Below, piece by piece: positions 29,507-45,512 of a stretch of DNA of 64,000 nucleotides (the stretch's first letter is position 1; every line of letters starts with the position of its first letter). A model generated the notes under the pieces. It was not told the origin of the DNA. It did no database searches and was given only the letters and a program-made list of their open reading frames with translations. The stretch covers positions 22,060,485 through 22,124,484 of the forward strand of contig NC_134027.1 of the NCBI RefSeq assembly GCF_964204645.1. The letters are read 5' to 3'. The translations under genes and the position numbers were made by a program. This DNA is from Tubulanus polymorphus (Eukaryota > Nemertea > Palaeonemertea > Tubulaniformes > Tubulanidae).

Positions 29507-29509
29507 TTA

Positions 29510-30331
29510 AGGCTGGCTTATGTCGACAAGCGACGCGACACCTACCGACTCCTACCGACGCAACTGAGAGCAACCGCGATCGCAGCCCAGCTTATGTCGA
29601 CTGCGCTCCGATTCGCAGCAACTGAAGCCGACTAGCGGGATACGAGATCCTCCCAGTTGCTTCCCTGCTTATGTCGGTTACGATTACTGGCAACTGCAAT
29701 GGCTCAGATGGTCACGTGATAAACATTTTGAGAATAAATTTGAATTATTTTGAATTATTGGGAAATATATTTCTATTAGAAAAGCTATATCTTTATGATC
29801 TTTATCTTTCTGATTCTGTTTTGAATACAATGTGCTAGCGACATCATATAAAGATGGCCGCTCACACCATAATTCTACGAATTTCGTTTCTAGATCTTCG
29901 GTCCAGTCATCTGCCGTGCTGAATGTTTGGTTTACGTTTTGAACTACTTGAATTTGAAAGTTTATGACTAATTAAGAATGACGCAAACTGGCGGTGATAA
30001 TTTGTACTATGTATATGCGGTCTCTTATTGGCTGGAACCCCTGCGCTCAGTTCAGTCGCGTCGCAGATAAGCTTATGTCAGTTGCGATTGAAAGCAACTG
30101 TCCACCTACCGTAGGCCGGAGTAGAACATGGGCAACTAGCCGGATACGGCTTGCGACGAGTTGGTAGGCGTCGGGTTGCCGACGCAAGCCGGCTTATGTC
30201 GAACCGATAGAGCAGATACTGGCGGCCTCTCGTAGGCCGCCTACCGACGCAACTGGGTTTATCGCCGATTAGCGGCGATAAACCCAGTTGCGTTGGTAGG
30301 CGTCGCGTTGCTTGTCGACATAAGCCAGCCT
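29510..30331. mobile_element. Harbinger-like non-autonomous element with TTA target duplication
   Basis: An 822-bp insertion with inverted ends AGGCTGGCTTATGTCGACAA of about 50 bp, flanked by TTA (29507-29509 and 30332-30334). The paralogous sequence at 38371 reads GGTGTTAGTTTTGCGG with a single TTA, a clean empty site. Three-base TTA duplications are typical of PIF/Harbinger elements. The interior has several CTTATGTCG-type subrepeats and no transposase. Near its right end (30238-30302) a hairpin with about 30-bp arms spans the stop codon of receptor copy 1, so the element contributes coding sequence to that gene. Confidence 0.85.
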
Positions 30332-31362
30332 TTAGTTTTGCGGCTGCACATGAATTTCACCGTCGACCGAAATTGTTTGCTGACGAGCAGATAAATTACG
30401 CAATTGATCGCCGAATCGATCGGCGTCAAATTGTCGAAAATCAAAAACAGCAAACCCTTAACTTGCGGGTCCCATTTGACTTGTATGAAGTAGTTGCACA
30501 CTCTCGAAAGGAGGGTCGGCAATTCGCAAACCAAGTATACAGATGTTGTAATTAAAACTAGCTGCGTTGCTTTGGTTTTCGCGGCCGAACCGTCGTTTCC
30601 CTTTTTGGTGGTCATCGACTTTCGTCGCCGGCTGGACCTAAATACCGACCACAACAGAACGACGTTGGCGAACATGATGAACACCGCCGGGATGCATATA
30701 GTCATTAACATGTATATCCAAGTGCTCGAGTAATCCATCGAGCTGCTTTTCACGAATTCTCCGAAGCGTGGAAAGTCCGGCGGAGCGCCTTCGCATTTCA
30801 ACATAACGATTCTGGCGCCGAAGTAACGCGGGACATACACGACGGCCGAAACGAAGACGACGATCGCCGTGCCGATATAAACGCGTTTCTTGTCGATGCA
30901 GCGCCGCGACCAGAATGGAAACAGCACGTGTAGACATCGGACGACCACGGTGAGAACGATCACCCAATTGCGTATTGTTACCGTCGATTTGTAGCTGGCG
31001 ATTCGAATCCAGTTCCACAACGGGAAAATCGCGTAGTCCGACCATCGACGGAATAGTAGATCTCCGTAGAGCGCTCGATGTATTAGGTGACGGAACGGGC
31101 CGTCTAAGAACGTATTCATTAAATAGATAATATCAGAAAGCGCCACGAGGATGAGAAGGCGAATGGCTTGCCCGCTTTCGGGCATTCTCCGAAAAACGAG
31201 TATGCTGAATGCATTGAAGCATACGCCGATAATACATACTGGAAGAATGAAGTAGATTTGAATGAAATGCGTTCGTGGCTTGTCCTTTATCAACGGGCAG
31301 ACGTATTCCTCCGTAGTAACGAAAGCGTCGGTGCTAGCTACTGCGGTTACGCCTTTGCCCAT
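30259..31362 (-). CDS. rhodopsin-like (class A) receptor, array copy 1
   Basis: Intronless, ATG at 31362, TAA at 30259, 367 residues, seven membrane segments at about 35-58, 67-90, 114-146, 162-178, 214-241, 264-287 and 302-327. Class A landmarks: N in TM1 (GVCFN), D in TM2 (LVALSD), R at the end of TM3 (VVRC in place of DRY), CELP in TM6 (for CWxP) and NCVIY in TM7 (for NPxxY). No cysteine is visible at the start of TM3, although ECL2 has one (MLKC) and the N-terminus another (EYVC). The sequence style is that of the large lophotrochozoan receptor expansions annotated as FMRFamide-receptor-like; the ligand is unknown. The last about 24 residues, after CSRKT, are encoded by an inserted transposon end; sister copies stop two residues after CSRKT. 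Confidence 0.85.
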   Translation of the reverse strand: MGKGVTAVASTDAFVTTEEYVCPLIKDKPRTHFIQIYFILPVCIIGVCFNAFSILVFRRMPESGQAIRLLILVALSDIIYLMNTFLDGPFRHLIHRALYGDLLFRRWSDYAIFPLWNWIRIASYKSTVTIRNWVIVLTVVVRCLHVLFPFWSRRCIDKKRVYIGTAIVVFVSAVVYVPRYFGARIVMLKCEGAPPDFPRFGEFVKSSSMDYSSTWIYMLMTICIPAVFIMFANVVLLWSVFRSSRRRKSMTTKKGNDGSAAKTKATQLVLITTSVYLVCELPTLLSRVCNYFIQVKWDPQVKGLLFLIFDNLTPIDSAINCVIYLLVSKQFRSTVKFMCSRKTKGWLMSTSNATPTNATGFIAANRR

Positions 31363-36095: not shown

Positions 36096-37130
36096 TCAGG
36101 TTAGAGTTTTGCGACTGCACATGATTTTCACCGTCGACCGATATTGTTTGCTGGCGATCAGATAGATTACGCAATTGACCGCCGAATCGACCGGGGTCAA
36201 GTTGTCAAAAATGAAAAAAAGCATATTCATAACAAGGTGGTCTCCTTTGACGCAGCCAAAATAGTTGCAAACTCGAGAAAAGAGGGTCGGCAATTCGCAC
36301 ACCAAATATATAGATGTCGTTATCAAAACTAGTTGCGTTGCTTTTGTTTTCGCGGCCGAACCGTCATTCGCAGTTTTCGTGGCCATCGACTTTCGTAGCC
36401 AACTGGACCTAAATACCGACCACAACAGAACGATATTCGCGAACATGATGAAGGCCGCCGGGATGGATACAGTTAGCAACATATATATCCAAGTGCTTAT
36501 AAAATCTATCGACTGATCTTTCGAAAATTTTCCATAGCGCGGGTAGTCCGGCGGAGCGCCGCTGCATTTTAACATTTCGATTCTGGCGCCGAAGTAACGC
36601 GGGACGTAGATGACGGCCGAGACGAAGACAACGATCGCCGTGCCGATATAAATGCGTTTCTTGTCGATGCAGCGCCGCGACCAGAACGGAAACAGCACGT
36701 GGAAACATCTGACGACCGCAGTGAGAACGATCATCCAATTGCGTATCATGACAGTCGACTTGTAGCTGGCGATTCGAATCCAGTTCCACAGCGGGAAAAC
36801 GGCGTAGTCCGACCATCGACGGAATAGTAAATCTTCGTAGAGCGCTCGATGTACCAGGTGACGGAACGGACCGTCTAAAAACGTATTCGATAAGTAGATA
36901 ATATCCGAAAGAGCCACGAGGATGAGAAGGCGAATGGCTTGCCCGCTTTCGGGCATTCTCCGAAAAACCAGTATGCTGAATACGTTGAAGCATACGCCCG
37001 TAATACATACGGGTAGAATGAAGTAGATTTGCAAGTAATGCTTTCCCGGTTGGGCTTTTTGCAACGGGCAGACGTACTCCTCAGTAGTAACAGTAACAGC
37101 AATAGTTATGGCAGTTAGGTTTCTGACCAT
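36096..37130 (-). CDS. rhodopsin-like (class A) receptor, array copy 3
   Basis: Intact intronless frame, ATG at 37130, TGA at 36096, 344 residues. Nearly identical to copy 4 and clearly similar to copy 1 in all seven membrane segments, with the same unusual landmarks: VVRC for DRY, CELP in TM6, NCVIY in TM7, and no cysteine before TM3. The N-terminus MVRNLTAITIAV...EEYVCPL has an N-glycosylation sequon (NLT). It ends CSRKTLT, with the stop two residues after the CSRKT shared by the family. Five 42-bp units abut the ATG. Probably a peptide or chemosensory receptor; ligand unknown. Confidence 0.85.
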   Translation of the reverse strand: MVRNLTAITIAVTVTTEEYVCPLQKAQPGKHYLQIYFILPVCITGVCFNVFSILVFRRMPESGQAIRLLILVALSDIIYLSNTFLDGPFRHLVHRALYEDLLFRRWSDYAVFPLWNWIRIASYKSTVMIRNWMIVLTAVVRCFHVLFPFWSRRCIDKKRIYIGTAIVVFVSAVIYVPRYFGARIEMLKCSGAPPDYPRYGKFSKDQSIDFISTWIYMLLTVSIPAAFIMFANIVLLWSVFRSSWLRKSMATKTANDGSAAKTKATQLVLITTSIYLVCELPTLFSRVCNYFGCVKGDHLVMNMLFFIFDNLTPVDSAVNCVIYLIASKQYRSTVKIMCSRKTLT

Positions 37131-37340
37131 ACTGAAGAACTTGTGATCATTGTTGCTGAATCCGAGGAGTGTACTGAAGAACTCGTGATTATTATCGCTG
37201 AATCCGAGGAGTGTACTGAAGAACTCGTGATTATTATCGCTGAATCCGAGGAGTGTACGGAAGAACTTGTGATTATCATTGCTGAATCAGAGGAGTGTAC
37301 TGAAGAACTCGTGATTATCATTGATGAATCCGCGACAATG
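37131..37340. repeat. 42-bp start-codon repeat, five units
   Basis: Five units (42 bp = 14 codons) immediately upstream of the receptor copy 3 ATG. On the minus strand one frame stays open through all units (14-residue unit IIITSSSVHSSDSA), begins at an ATG about 37319-37321 and overlaps the receptor start, ending at 37115. The receptor frame itself (14-residue unit TLLGFSNNNHEFFS) is broken by a TGA in one unit. Confidence 0.85.
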
Positions 37341-37956: not shown

Positions 37957-38373
37957 TTTAGAGAATCTATCAGGGGTCAACATTTACCTCTCATTTTCTT
38001 CGGGACAGAGATGTGGATCCAGATTAAATGCCAAGAAAGTATTTGGCAATCTTTGGCAGTCGCTATAGTATGGCACCCTGCATCTCTGGGAGATGCAAGG
38101 AGCACCAGATGCGACACTATAGCATTGATCGGAGGGGGGCATCCACGGATTTTCTGGGGCAATGATTACTGTTGTCTGTTGTTGGCGAAAAGAAAATATG
38201 AAAACACTGCTCAATTTATATCAAGGCTTAGTAATGATACGACATTCAGATGGGGTGCATATGTTACAACATGTATTGGTCATTTATTCAGATCCCACAG
38301 AGGACTGGGTTTTACGGCTTGTAGTAGTCATCCGTCGAAATGATCGCCCCCCCCCCCCCCGAGGATTAGGTGT
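37957..38373. repeat. receptor-array module, partial copy
   Basis: Matches 28960-29506 (GGACAGAGATGTGGATCCAG, TATGGCACCCTGCATCTCTGG, TAATGATACGACATTCAGAT). It lacks both insertions found there (29192-29358 and 29510-30331). A run of about 14 C lies at 38347-38360. Confidence 0.8.
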
Positions 38374-38434
38374 TAGTTTTGCGGCTGCACATGATTTTCT
38401 CTGTCGACCGATATTGTGGTTTGCTGACGATCCG
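38374..38434 (-). pseudogene. receptor C-terminal scrap
   Basis: On the minus strand it reads IVSKPQYRSTEKIMCSRKT then two residues and a stop, matching the end of TM7 and the C-tail of the array receptors. It is joined directly to a MITE fragment; everything from the N-terminus to TM7 is missing. It supplies the empty site for the transposon in receptor copy 1. Confidence 0.8.
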
Positions 38435-39545: not shown

Positions 39546-40583
39546 TCAGGTGACAGTTTTGCGACTGCACATGATTTTCACCGTCGACCGATATTGTTTG
39601 CTGGCGATCAGATAGATTACGCAATTGACCGCCGAATCGACCGGGGTCAAGTTGTCAAAAATGAAAAAAAGCATATTCATTACGTAGGGGTTTCCTTTGA
39701 CGCAGCCAAAATAGTTGCAAACTCTAGAAAAGAGGGTCGGCAATTCGCACACCAAATATATAGATGTCGTTATCAAAACTAGCTGCGTCGCTTTTGTTTT
39801 CGTGGCTGAACCGTCATTTGCGGTTTTCGTGGCCATCGACTTTCGTAGCCAACTGGACCTAAATACCGAGCACAACAGAACGATATTCGCGAACATGATG
39901 AAAACCGCCGGGATGGATACAGTTAGCAACATATATATCCAAGTGCTTATATAATCTATCGACCGATCTTTCGAAAATTTTGCATAGCGCGGGTAGTCCG
40001 GCGGAGCGCCGCTGCATTTTAACATTTCGATTCTGGCGCCGAAGTAACGCGGGACGTAGACGACGGCCGAGACGAAGACAACGATCGCCGTGCCGATATA
40101 AATGCGTTTCTTGTCGATGCAGCGCCGCGACCAGAACGGAAACAGCACGTGAAAACATCTGACGACCGCAGTGAGAACGATCATCCAATTGCGTATCGTG
40201 ACCGTCGACTTGTAGCTGGCGATTCGAATCCAGTTCCACAGCGGGAAAACGGCGTAGTCCGACCATCGACGGAATAGTAAATCTCCGTAGAGCGCTCGAT
40301 GTACCAGGTGACGGAACGGACCGTCTAAAAACGTATTCGATAAGTAGATAATATCCGAAAGAGCCACGAGGATGAGAAGGCGAATGGCTTGCCCGCTTTC
40401 GGGCATTCTCCGAAAAACCAGTATGCTGAATACGTTGAAGCATACGCCCATAATACATACAGGTAGAATGAAGTAGATTTGCAAGTAATGCTTTCCCGGT
40501 TGGGCTTTTTGCAACGGGCAGAGGTACTCCTCGGTAATAACAGGAACAGCAGTGCTAGTTATGGCAGTTAGGTTTCTACCCAT
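39546..40583 (-). CDS. rhodopsin-like (class A) receptor, array copy 4
   Basis: Intact intronless frame, TGA at 39546. I choose ATG at 40583 (MGRNLTAITS...) by analogy with copies 1 and 3, giving 345 residues. The frame stays open further upstream through one 42-bp unit, but its farthest codon is GTG and no upstream ATG is conserved. Seven membrane segments and landmarks as in copy 3 (VVRC, CELP, NCVIY), ending CSRKTVT. It differs from copy 3 at few positions, mainly in the N-terminus and the third extracellular loop, consistent with a recent duplication of a unit of about 3.45 kb. Ligand unknown. Confidence 0.85.
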   Translation of the reverse strand: MGRNLTAITSTAVPVITEEYLCPLQKAQPGKHYLQIYFILPVCIMGVCFNVFSILVFRRMPESGQAIRLLILVALSDIIYLSNTFLDGPFRHLVHRALYGDLLFRRWSDYAVFPLWNWIRIASYKSTVTIRNWMIVLTAVVRCFHVLFPFWSRRCIDKKRIYIGTAIVVFVSAVVYVPRYFGARIEMLKCSGAPPDYPRYAKFSKDRSIDYISTWIYMLLTVSIPAVFIMFANIVLLCSVFRSSWLRKSMATKTANDGSATKTKATQLVLITTSIYLVCELPTLFSRVCNYFGCVKGNPYVMNMLFFIFDNLTPVDSAVNCVIYLIASKQYRSTVKIMCSRKTVT

Positions 40584-40625
40584 ACTGAAGAACTTGTGAT
40601 TATTATTGCTGAATCCGCGACAATG
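40584..40625. repeat. 42-bp start-codon repeat, single unit
   Basis: ACTGAAGAACTTGTGATTAT..GAATCCGCG abuts the copy 4 start codon. A diverged single unit is also recognisable upstream of copy 1 (31363-31410). Confidence 0.8.
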
Positions 40626-42005
40626 ATTTGAAAGAGTGACGTGGCAAGACACGAATTGTTTGATACGTTTTAGTGTCGCATCTCCGTAACCTCTATTCGC
40701 AGTTGTAGTTGCGCGCCTATGTAATTTGTAAACGTTGAGGATTGCTACACACGTATTTACCCCGAGGCGTTTCGTTGAAATATACTATATGCAAAAATTT
40801 CCGAATTTTGATATAGCCTATTGCATCATCTACACATCTAGCTAGTGGGCCTTGAAATCCTTGAATAGCCTTAGATTATCGAAAGGATATTCAAGGCCTT
40901 GAAACGCCTTGAATTCAGATCTTCTTTGGTCTTGAAAATTGATTTTTTGGGCCTTGAATTTTAAGACTGTCGTGAATCTGTAAGTTCATAATCGTTTTTT
41001 TGCAATGATGATTTTTGCTTTTACTAAAGACCAAATTTTAGACATACAGTCACCAGTCATCACTACACAAAAATGGGATGATGAACGAAAATGTTTTTAA
41101 AGTTGTTTTGAAATAGAAGATACGATGTAGTGGGTGGGATTGTCCTAGTGATGATTTGTTTTGTAAATAGCAATTTCATCTACTAAAGCTAAAAGTTGTT
41201 GGTTTTGGTTATTTTTGAATGAATCGAGGATTTCCTGCCGTAAAAAGACTTTTCTTGAAAGACTCGAAAGCGCTTCTCAAATGGCCTTGAATATTGATTG
41301 TCCTCGAGGCTATGAACCCTGTTTTTCAGCAACATGACATTGAAGATGACCTAATAGCCGAGTAACGGGGTCAAAATCCAAAAAGTTGTCTCGACAAAAT
41401 TTAGCTATTGGCCCTAGATAAAAATATCCAAAATGCAATGGGAACTAACGCATGGTGATTTCGCAGTTCAAGCCTGAGCCCAAGAACAGTTGTCGCCTTT
41501 GGCTTGTTCTAAGAGAGTTAACAAAGAAATGATGATATTGCAAAAAAAGTAAGGTTTGATAGTTGAATAATTTTACTTTCATGCTCTAAATACTGAAACG
41601 CCACATATCATAGCATGGTTTTATTAGGATCAAACTGTGCTGATCGTTATATAATGGTCCTGAGTGTAACTTCTGTTAGCTCTCGGTGCCAATGGATGTA
41701 CACAGCTGATATTTTGTCATTAGGAGGGAAATAGGTGTTGGAATTGACGCGGCGAGGTTCCGTCCATCAGCTCTAAGCCACTTGGAAGTGCTGGGAGAAA
41801 ATTTGCAAAATGTTATTGAATTTTTTCCATATTCTATTTATGCAACATCTCTTCATAAAAAATTACAACTTTTGAATTTAACGTGTGAATTTCGATATCT
41901 ACATCCAAACTATTGGGTGTGAATTTCTTCAATGGGATACCGGCAAGGCTACTGAGGGAAGCAAGGATTCAGTGATAATCCGCCAGGATCGCTAGTTGTA
42001 CTGGG
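40626..42005. other. upstream flank of receptor copy 4 and intergenic DNA
   Basis: The first about 300 bp repeats 37341-37690. About 41000-42000 has no counterpart at the corresponding place after copy 3, so it is an insertion here or a deletion there. No gene seen. Confidence 0.5.
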
Positions 42006-42631: not shown

Positions 42632-43779
42632 TATGGTTAGTTAGAATATATTATCAAAGTCTTGTCATTTATAGGTGTAAAATGTCACCTCTTTTTATAT
42701 GAATCGTGGTTTACTTGAATTTCCCTTAATCATTAATTAGAAAATGAATTCCAGTGGCAATAAGGGTAATGTGTGAGTGGATGTCCATTCGGTCGTCGAT
42801 TTAGGCTTTGCTAGACTGGTTTCTGGTAATTAGATGAAAAAATCAAATCGTCCATACATACTTGTCACTAAAATATGGGTTAGCCAGTTATCATTGTTGA
42901 CAATATTAAGTGTTATATGCGTTATTTTACGTGGCGTTGCTGAACTTTCGAGGTAATTTTTCTTGATGTCATTTGTTTATTAGCCGCCATCACGCAAGCG
43001 TTTTTAACTCGGAGAAAAATTTGGCCCTACCAAAAAACATCGGAGCAGACGCGAGCCAAATTTTAGCATGGATCAAATCATTGGGCGTGAATTCTTTAGG
43101 ATTTCGACATCGCTCTGCTTTGTTTGAGCATTGTCTAGTATGTAGTGAGTGGTTTACCGATCCGGACCAAATCATATCCGTGCGATCGCGGCTATAGTTA
43201 TCAATCCTTGAGTAATCCAGAGCACGTGAACATGCCTAGGCGATGTTCCCTTCAATCTCGGAAATCACCACCAGTATCAGTAAAACAAGTGGTAAAAGGG
43301 AAGTCAGCATGATAAAAAAAAACAATCGCGCTCGATTTCCTGTTGCTGCTTCCTTTTCAGACATCGTGTCGTTTACTGATACCAGACACTGACTCATTCT
43401 AATATTCTATTTATACGCAGTTTTATAAAAAAATTGCTATTCATATACCATTGAATCAGTAATGAGGGTTCATTCGGTTTTAGTTTCATGTATCAATTGT
43501 TGAATAGTTTATCGATTTGAAATAAATCATCAATATCCGGTTCGTCTGTCTCTCTGCGCTTCCTCGTTTACTACCATCCTGTTGCCTCCATGTTACACCC
43601 ACCCTGTCCGGTGCTTAGAAATCCACTCCCACTCAATCTGCGAATTCGAATTGCTTCGATAACTTAGAAATTCTAGAACTTGTTCATTCTATGGTTGTTA
43701 TTTCGATGCCAATTCCTGTGCGATTACCCCAATTCACCTCAATTCCTTTACTTTAATATTGATACCTTGATCATTTTAC
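42628..43779. other. intergenic, one MITE, no gene seen
   Basis: Apart from the MITE at 42982-43194 no structure is recognisable. Confidence 0.4.
42982..43194. mobile_element. GCGATCACAC-family MITE (copy 5)
   Basis: AGCCGCCATCACGC at the left, GTGCGATCGCGGCTA at the right, with the internal core inverted relative to copy 2 and partly deleted. Confidence 0.75.
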
Positions 43780-44700
43780 CTCTACTGTTACCTCAATACC
43801 TGAATACCTATACCTCTACTATTACCTCAATACCTATACCTCTACCGTTGTTACCTCAGTACCTCTACTATTACCTCAGCATCTACACCTCTACTGTTAC
43901 CTCAATATCTACACCACTATTGTTACCTCAATATCTACACCTCTACTGTTACCTCAGTACCTATACCTCTACTGTTACCTCAGTACCTATACCTATACTG
44001 TTACCTCAGTACCTACACCACTATTGTTACCTCAATATCTACACCTATACTGTTACCTCAGTACCTATATCTCTATTGTTACCTCAGTACCTAAATCTCT
44101 ACTGTTACCTCAGTATCTATACCTCTTCTGTTACCTCAATATCTACACCTCTATTGTTACCTCAGTACCTATATCTCTACTGTTACCTCAATATCTACAC
44201 CTATACTGTTACCTCAATATCTACACCTATACTGTTACCTCAGTACCTATACCTCTTCTGTTACCTCAATATCTATACCTATACTGTTACCTCAGTACCT
44301 ATACCTCTTCTGTTACCTCAATATCTATACCTCTATTGTTACCTCAGTACCTATACCTATACTGTTACCTCAGTACCTATATCTCTATTGTTACCTCAGT
44401 ACCTAAATCTCTACTGTTACCTCAGTATCTATACCTCTTCTGTTACCTCAATATCTACACCTCTATTGTTACCTCAGTACCTATATCTCTACTGTTACCT
44501 CAATATCTACACCTATACTGTTACCTCAATATCTACACCTATACTGTTACCTCAGTACCTATATCTCTACTGTTACCTCAGTACCTATATCTCTATTGTT
44601 ACCTCAGTATCTATACCTCTTCTGTTACCTCAATATCTATACCTCTATTGTTACCTCAATATCTATACCTCTATTGCTACCTCAGTATTTTTATATTACC
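43780..44700. repeat. 26-bp minisatellite, about 35 units
   Basis: Unit TTACCTCAGTACCTATACCT plus CTACTG, with C/T-rich plus strand. A higher-order period of 312 bp (12 units) is visible: the variant CTAAATCTCT occurs at 44091 and again at 44403 in the same context. Degenerate units continue to about 45000. Because 3 units equal 78 bp and no unit contains a stop, long open frames (372 and 226 codons) arise by chance; they are not genes. Confidence 0.92.
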
Positions 44701-45512
44701 TTGATACATATATATCTGTTGGCTTGATACCTAAACCTTTGTTTCCTCTGAACATACACCTCAACCATTACCTCAGTACTTTTATTTCTATATTTTGATA
44801 CATAAACATCTATTATCGCACATAAACATCTATTGTCATCCCCCCCTCGATTCATTTTCCTCTGTTGGTAGGTTGATAGCTATACTTCTTTCGACCTTGA
44901 TGCCTTTACCTCTATCACACCTAGACACTTATACCTCTATCGTTGCCTTGATACCTCTTTCCTTTTTACTCAATACATCGACCTCTATTACTCTAAGATT
45001 AGACTAAGAAATGAACTGTGTTTACACAACGTTCGATTGAGTAAAGAAATTTTTGATCCTTCGAACCTCCGGTAAATCCCTCAACTTGTAAACAGTAAAC
45101 GGTACTGGCATTCGGTTCTGATGAGTTTAGAGTAAATATTTGTATCATTTTTCCCACTTTCCTATAGGACCCGGTGGCATTTTTGTGTTAACTGTATTTC
45201 GCGCTTTACATTCACTACTTGTCACTAATGTACATATTGCGTATGATATAAGTCGACTGTGTATATAAAACCTCTGTTTGAGGATAAACACGTCCTATCG
45301 TTAACAATTGAGTAACAATTTATCTTATCGTAGATTTCTATGTATGTTGTCATGTCATACTTTTACATTTAGTTATGTTACTATGGTCATTTTCATTCAT
45401 AGTTAATGCAAGTATAGACAGATTTAGTGGACTGGGTGACGTGTTAATGACCTTAAATCTATGATTGGGGCTAACTTTCCCCTTATATGGCATTACGTGA
45501 CCTGATTGATCG
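44701..45512. other. degenerate satellite edge and spacer
   Basis: 44701-45000 holds decayed units of the 26-bp satellite (TTGATACCT, CTCTAT words). 45000-45512 is unique spacer without a gene. Confidence 0.55.

Follow-up and report, generated by a model that had tools for sequence, protein, structure and literature searches.

The window analysed here, i.e. the whole stretch of 64,000 nucleotides of Tubulanus polymorphus DNA (contig NC_134027.1; C3:22060485-22124484), harbours a cluster of single-exon receptor genes on the minus strand, at about 30-41 kb. Copies 1, 3 and 4 have open frames and copy 2 is broken. The receptor frames are as follows:

30259..31362, minus strand: receptor copy 1, single-exon 7TM GPCR ORF of 367 aa including the element-derived tail (ORF list and Pfam)
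36096..37130, minus strand: receptor copy 3, which ends CSRKTLT-stop (ORF list)
39546..40652, minus strand: receptor copy 4, ORF as listed, which ends CSRKTVT-stop (GTG start, with an ATG inside, at MGRNLTA)

Copy 1 is a Srw/rhodopsin-class 7TM GPCR, which matches the Pfam models 7TM_GPCR_Srw (PF10324; 69.5 bits, E 4.1e-19, cut-off 22.2) and 7tm_1 (PF00001; 35.9 bits, E 7.2e-9, cut-off 30.5). Elsewhere in the window, several near-identical repeats of about 57 bp were seen by eye just upstream of the copy 3 start (37141-37330), and a ~1-kb array of 26-bp tandem repeats (43680-44798) gives rise to long open frames of repetitive sequence on the plus strand.

The 3' end of copy 1 is interrupted by a mobile element, with the following features:

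29507..29509, unstranded: target-site duplication TTA, low-coordinate side
29509..29549, unstranded: terminal inverted repeat, low side (the first base of the arm is part of the TTA)
29510..30331, unstranded: non-autonomous inverted-repeat element (MITE), PIF/Harbinger-like, 822 bp
29762..29917, minus strand: MADF-like coding remnant inside the element (PF10545 16.0 bits, E 0.016, below the cut-off of 22)
30292..30332, unstranded: terminal inverted repeat, high side, the minus-strand reading of which is coding sequence
30332..30334, unstranded: target-site duplication TTA on the high-coordinate side, read as TAA by the gene strand, where its second and third bases open the first new codon, AAA
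38373..38375, unstranded: empty paralogous site with a single TTA (alignment with the joined copy-1 flanks)

The two 41-nt terminal arms are 93% complementary, and the insertion point lies in the second-last sense codon of copy 1, two codons ahead of the inferred old stop. Joined without the element, the copy-1 flanks read, by eye, CSRKT-N-T-stop, and they are 80% identical across the junction to a sister stretch (38223-38430) that reads CSRKTNT-stop. This sister stretch is not an allele; it is a paralogous remnant in which no more than the final ~55 bp of a receptor gene survive, and a genome search for a second allele of the insertion site showed none. The first-pass annotation had described an inverted-repeat element of this length with TTA flanks across the 3' end of copy 1, a sister sequence with one TTA and no insertion, and a stop two residues after CSRKT in copies 3 and 4; these descriptions hold. 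From these comparisons, and those of the family below, we regard the insertion, the empty paralogous site, the frame and the family as established in the DNA. It is extremely improbable that the junction or the hairpin described below is an assembly or sequencing artefact: hairpins are error-prone, but the target-site duplication is clean, the empty site matches, both flanks stand in one piece on a single 27.8-Mb contig, and the low-side flank matches, in the genome search, only itself and the sister stretch.

The element has hundreds of relatives in the genome (267.8 Mb, 77 contigs; the whole-genome search gave 540 first-look candidates, 40 of which were scored). The exact end of the terminal repeat followed by TWA occurs 277 times (159 forward, 118 reverse) and the reversed control pattern not once, so that these ends are not due to chance. 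A perfect duplication was found at 24 of the 39 fetched loci (13 TTA/TTA and 11 TAA/TAA), not all of them independent since the TTA/TTA loci L009 and L010 have flanks in common; the 15 remaining loci lack a perfect pair, being mixed, altered, truncated or matched in part. The element is short (822 bp at copy 1, for a consensus of 806 bp over 31 near-full copies), has inverted ends and no transposase, and occurs in many copies of similar length, as a MITE does. A copy of the MADF remnant related to that in our element, in L070, scored 18.9 bits (E 0.002), also below the PF10545 cut-off of 22. Four places in the genome score identically for the MADF remnant (C1:12713792, C4:14811468, C5:3041047 and C7:8546140), and at C4:14811468 (L104) the related MADF piece lies within a larger repeat.

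As described in PMC4482050, TWA target-site duplications are a signature of PIF/Harbinger, for which a second gene of the Myb/SANT/MADF type is also described (PMC4482050, PMC9710019). The copy-1 element resembles the PIF/Harbinger elements and MITEs of these accounts by its TWA duplications and, tentatively, by its weak, sub-threshold MADF remnant, and differs from them in that an autonomous partner was not found for it. PF13359 (DDE_Tnp_4) has 150 scored matches in the genome; none of the 20 fetched loci has these terminal repeats on both sides within 1.5 kb, nor has one further candidate, and no TWA-flanked inverted repeat of any kind was found by strict criteria in the 1.5-kb flanks of the same 20 loci. 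Two candidate partners, the 2.5-kb pair of ends L069 (C3) and the larger repeat L104, were rejected as having no recognised transposase frame, and Harbinger-like transposase fragments beside a MITE copy (L070:1237-3423) were taken as neighbours. The earlier reading of the TTA as a PIF/Harbinger mark fits the duplications, but no link to a transposase was found among these candidates. Since the TWA duplications and the sub-threshold MADF remnant both fit PIF/Harbinger, the element likely belongs to this group.

With the element in place, the frame of copy 1 runs from CSRKT into the terminal repeat and reads CSRKT-KGWLMSTSNATPTNATGFIAANRR-stop, KGWLMSTSNATPTNATGFIAANRR replacing N-T-stop:

30262..30333, minus strand: 24 new codons, KGWLMSTSNATPTNATGFIAANRR (two bases of the initial AAA codon also belong to the target-site duplication)
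30259..30261, minus strand: TAA stop codon, located within the hairpin's 3' arm (ORF list)

This tail has two NAT motifs and ends NRR, in agreement with the first description of about 24 residues with two NAT and a basic end. The idea that the element end is specially open across all reading frames was dropped: its open runs of 19 and 21 codons are matched by 15% and 10% of shuffles and are therefore not unusual. Of the receptor loci fetched, 20 in all, 17 end in short tails and two, copy 1 and L083, in long ones; the remaining one is the broken copy 2. L083 (C5:24267553-24268590), a more distant receptor, carries an independent longer C-tail of 24 residues, which arose by stop loss (TTA where its sister L084 has TGA), so that this receptor family tolerates longer tails.

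The stop of copy 1 is embedded in a hairpin, described by the following features:

30238..30302, unstranded: hairpin with 30-nt arms (30238-30267 and 30273-30302), 97% complementary, and a 5-nt loop (30268-30272) that is inverted as compared to the family
30241..30269, unstranded: template-switched block, the exact reverse complement of the neighbouring consensus arm (equivalent solutions of 32-39 bp within about 30238-30276)
30294..30294, unstranded: T as compared to the consensus C of a CpG (family alignment), changing the codon GAC to AAC and creating the second NAT

As RNA, the hairpin folds with −57.6 kcal/mol (z −11.0; none of 200 shuffles as good). A perfect-looking terminal hairpin around the stop had been noted at the outset; the hairpin is real, but it is subterminal and private to copy 1 rather than a regular component of the terminal repeat. 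In an alignment of 31 other near-full copies, read in the receptor frame, 6 were dropped for want of a recognisable end: 21 of the 25 readable ones stop after 21 residues, the other four at 59, and copy 1 alone at 24. The 21-residue stop of the family is a codon in a short quasi-palindrome. At this quasi-palindrome, copy 1 differs from the family by 18 additional bp, an inverted loop (ATTAG instead of CTAAT on the plus strand), the loss of the TAG and the gain of a TAA three residues on.

The following lines of evidence point to a single template switch. First, a four-point template switch reproduces copy 1 with no mismatch in the copied 32-39 bp and three substitutions outside (20 equivalent placements). 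Second, when the ancestral flank is reverse-complemented, the 29-nt novel block matches it at 29 of 29 nt, whereas the best of 5000 shuffles reached 10. The perfect arm, 4 bp long in the consensus, measures 21 bp in copy 1 and is followed by one mismatch and 8 further bp. This mismatch is position 30294, where the copied sequence remains complementary to the family C, so that the C-to-T change is later than the switch; two other family copies also have T at this position, and this CpG change thus recurs. On these grounds we conclude that the stop and the last residues were made by one template switch, and are not the family's own, and that the switch is fitted by a single event preceding the C-to-T change. 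Accordingly, the claim that a MITE end became coding sequence is upheld at the sequence level for the 24 in-frame C-terminal codons and the stop, except that the stop and the last residues come from the template switch.

Could the long hairpin have been present already in the source element, so that no second event took place at the copy-1 locus? Many relatives lie outside the alignment of the 31 other copies, but none of these 31 carries the hairpin, and a pattern search of the 267.8 Mb, allowing up to three mismatches, found its junction at the copy-1 site only. We therefore regard an inherited hairpin as distinctly unlikely; a switch later than the insertion is the order favoured by the uniqueness of the hairpin in the genome.

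With the hairpin masked, the element diverges by 3.05% from the family consensus (median of the other copies, 3.33%); among the aligned relatives, the nearest differs from it by 5.0% and the median one by 6.1%. Of its 24 differences from the consensus, 11 are private and 13 common to at least one other copy. Between the receptors, dS is 0.358 for copy 1 versus copy 4 and 0.353 versus copy 3, i.e. about 0.18 per lineage. The ratio 0.0305/0.18 makes the element about one-sixth as old as the split of the receptor copies, a relative date that assumes equal neutral rates. The proposal of a recent and datable insertion is thus borne out by about 3% against a dS of 0.35, but in relative terms only. 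Dating from haplotypes was set aside, as the 99.88% identity between the contigs C21 and C2 over 10 kb (L074 and L075) says little about diversity; C21 is probably a redundant contig.

The dN/dS of copy 1 is 0.282 versus copy 4 and 0.309 versus copy 3 over 316 codons, values which mostly reflect the time before the insertion. After polarisation with two outgroups, copy 1 shows 23 synonymous and 21 nonsynonymous changes over 233 and 715 sites, respectively, and copy 4 shows 26 and 18. In a neutral simulation at 3.05% divergence, the frame remained intact with a probability of 0.30 without indels, 0.057 at half the family indel rate and 0.011 at the full rate (0.008-0.36 across nine settings, any indel being counted as disabling). 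As the copy-1 element has no indel outside the hairpin, the weaker of these figures deserves weight, and the data suggest, at that strength, that copy 1 may have been constrained after the insertion.

At the RNA level, the gene strand has no AATAAA or ATTAAA from the copy-1 stop down to 28312 (~1.9 kb), whereas in copies 3 and 4 such a signal is reached within about 380-430 nt. The family consensus carries a gene-strand AATAAA, found in context in 11 of 30 copies, which was lost at copy 1 by one substitution (29744). This absence of a canonical poly(A) signal counts against easy expression of copy 1, and a hairpin this strong around the stop could lower it too. It is possible, though doubtful, that copy 1 is unexpressed or decaying and that its open frame into the element is incidental: a neutral frame may survive at about 3% divergence (P 0.01-0.30), no canonical poly(A) signal lies within ~1.9 kb and the neighbouring copy 2 is broken, but the ORF of copy 1 is intact and its ratio of synonymous to nonsynonymous changes is like that of copy 4. 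That the mRNA avoids the tail, by early cleavage or splicing, to produce a receptor without the 24 residues, is unlikely. The hairpin and the element could disturb 3' processing, but the nearest relatives of copy 1 are single-exon ORFs, the stretch from the stop to 28312 has no canonical signal, and a cleavage ahead of the stop would yield a non-stop mRNA.

We therefore favour the following account, which we regard, as a whole, as probable. A MITE, probably of the PIF/Harbinger type, inserted with duplication of a TTA into a GPCR gene that was intact and constrained, at its second-last sense codon. Because the element end is open in the receptor frame, the receptor would have gained a C-terminal extension at once, most likely the 21 residues of the family ending in the subterminal quasi-palindrome. 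Later, and most likely in place, DNA synthesis switched template in this quasi-palindrome, copied 32-39 bp of the adjacent arm in reverse complement and returned, thereby perfecting the hairpin, inverting the loop, removing the TAG and placing a TAA three residues on, to give the 24-residue tail. A C-to-T change then turned DAT into NAT. The mRNA would run through the element and the longer receptor would be made.

In 7TM receptors, the C-terminal tail lies in the cytoplasm. The NAT sequons are consequently expected to be irrelevant, and glycosylation at these sites was ruled out by the topology. If produced, the receptor would most likely differ in its cytoplasmic tail, to which the sequence STSNATPTNAT adds six Ser/Thr-rich positions. 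This tail contains two Ser/Thr patterns of the PxPxxP type (STSNAT and TPTNAT), whereas none of seven comparison tails has any after the cysteine; patterns of this type are described as used for arrestin recruitment (PMC10412580). Other copies of the MITE family encode the same patterns, which were therefore not selected at copy 1. It is a highly speculative and improbable idea that the element end is a ready-made regulatory tail, by which a short-tailed GPCR could become arrestin-regulated through one insertion, with translation tuned by the template-switched hairpin around the stop.

A human leptin receptor isoform reportedly has an LTR-derived C-terminus; copy 1 is similar in that a mobile element provides a new receptor C-terminus, whereas the leptin receptor would acquire it from a retroviral LTR and by splicing. 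In CSB-PGBD3, the product of a host gene takes its 3' end and C-terminus from a DNA transposon; as reported in PMC2268245, this occurs through an alternatively spliced transposase exon, an arrangement conserved for at least 43 Myr, and the protein was shown. In contrast, copy 1 involves an unspliced insertion, the end of a non-autonomous element and 24 predicted residues. The switch itself is of the same type as that described for yeast REG2 (PMC8604942), where one event perfected an inverted repeat (arm from 5 to 16 bp) and inverted the spacer in coding DNA; at copy 1 the coding sequence is transposon-derived, the arm went from 4 to about 30 bp, 18 bp were added and the stop was moved. Template switches also turn imperfect inverted repeats into perfect ones in transcribed yeast DNA (PMC3820800), in what is presented there as an experimental reporter, without a transposon or a new protein end. 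A sceptical study argues that exonic non-autonomous elements are often not coding, which fits our caution on the copy-1 tail. No case of a MITE end combined with a template switch in one gene end was found in a search of one open-access collection. Protein ends made by transposons have precedents, and so have template-switched codons; their combination at copy 1 appears to be new.

Together, these data lay out at one locus a traceable order of events, i.e. insertion, use of the element end in frame, and a copying error relocating the stop, where the other family copies provide the ancestral state and the order can be read from the two hairpin arms. Production of the longer receptor would be expected to yield peptide fragments of the GWLMSTSNATPTNATGFIAANR type, and, if copy 1 is expressed, the locus would make it possible to test directly whether the behaviour of a receptor is altered by a young tail of transposon origin.
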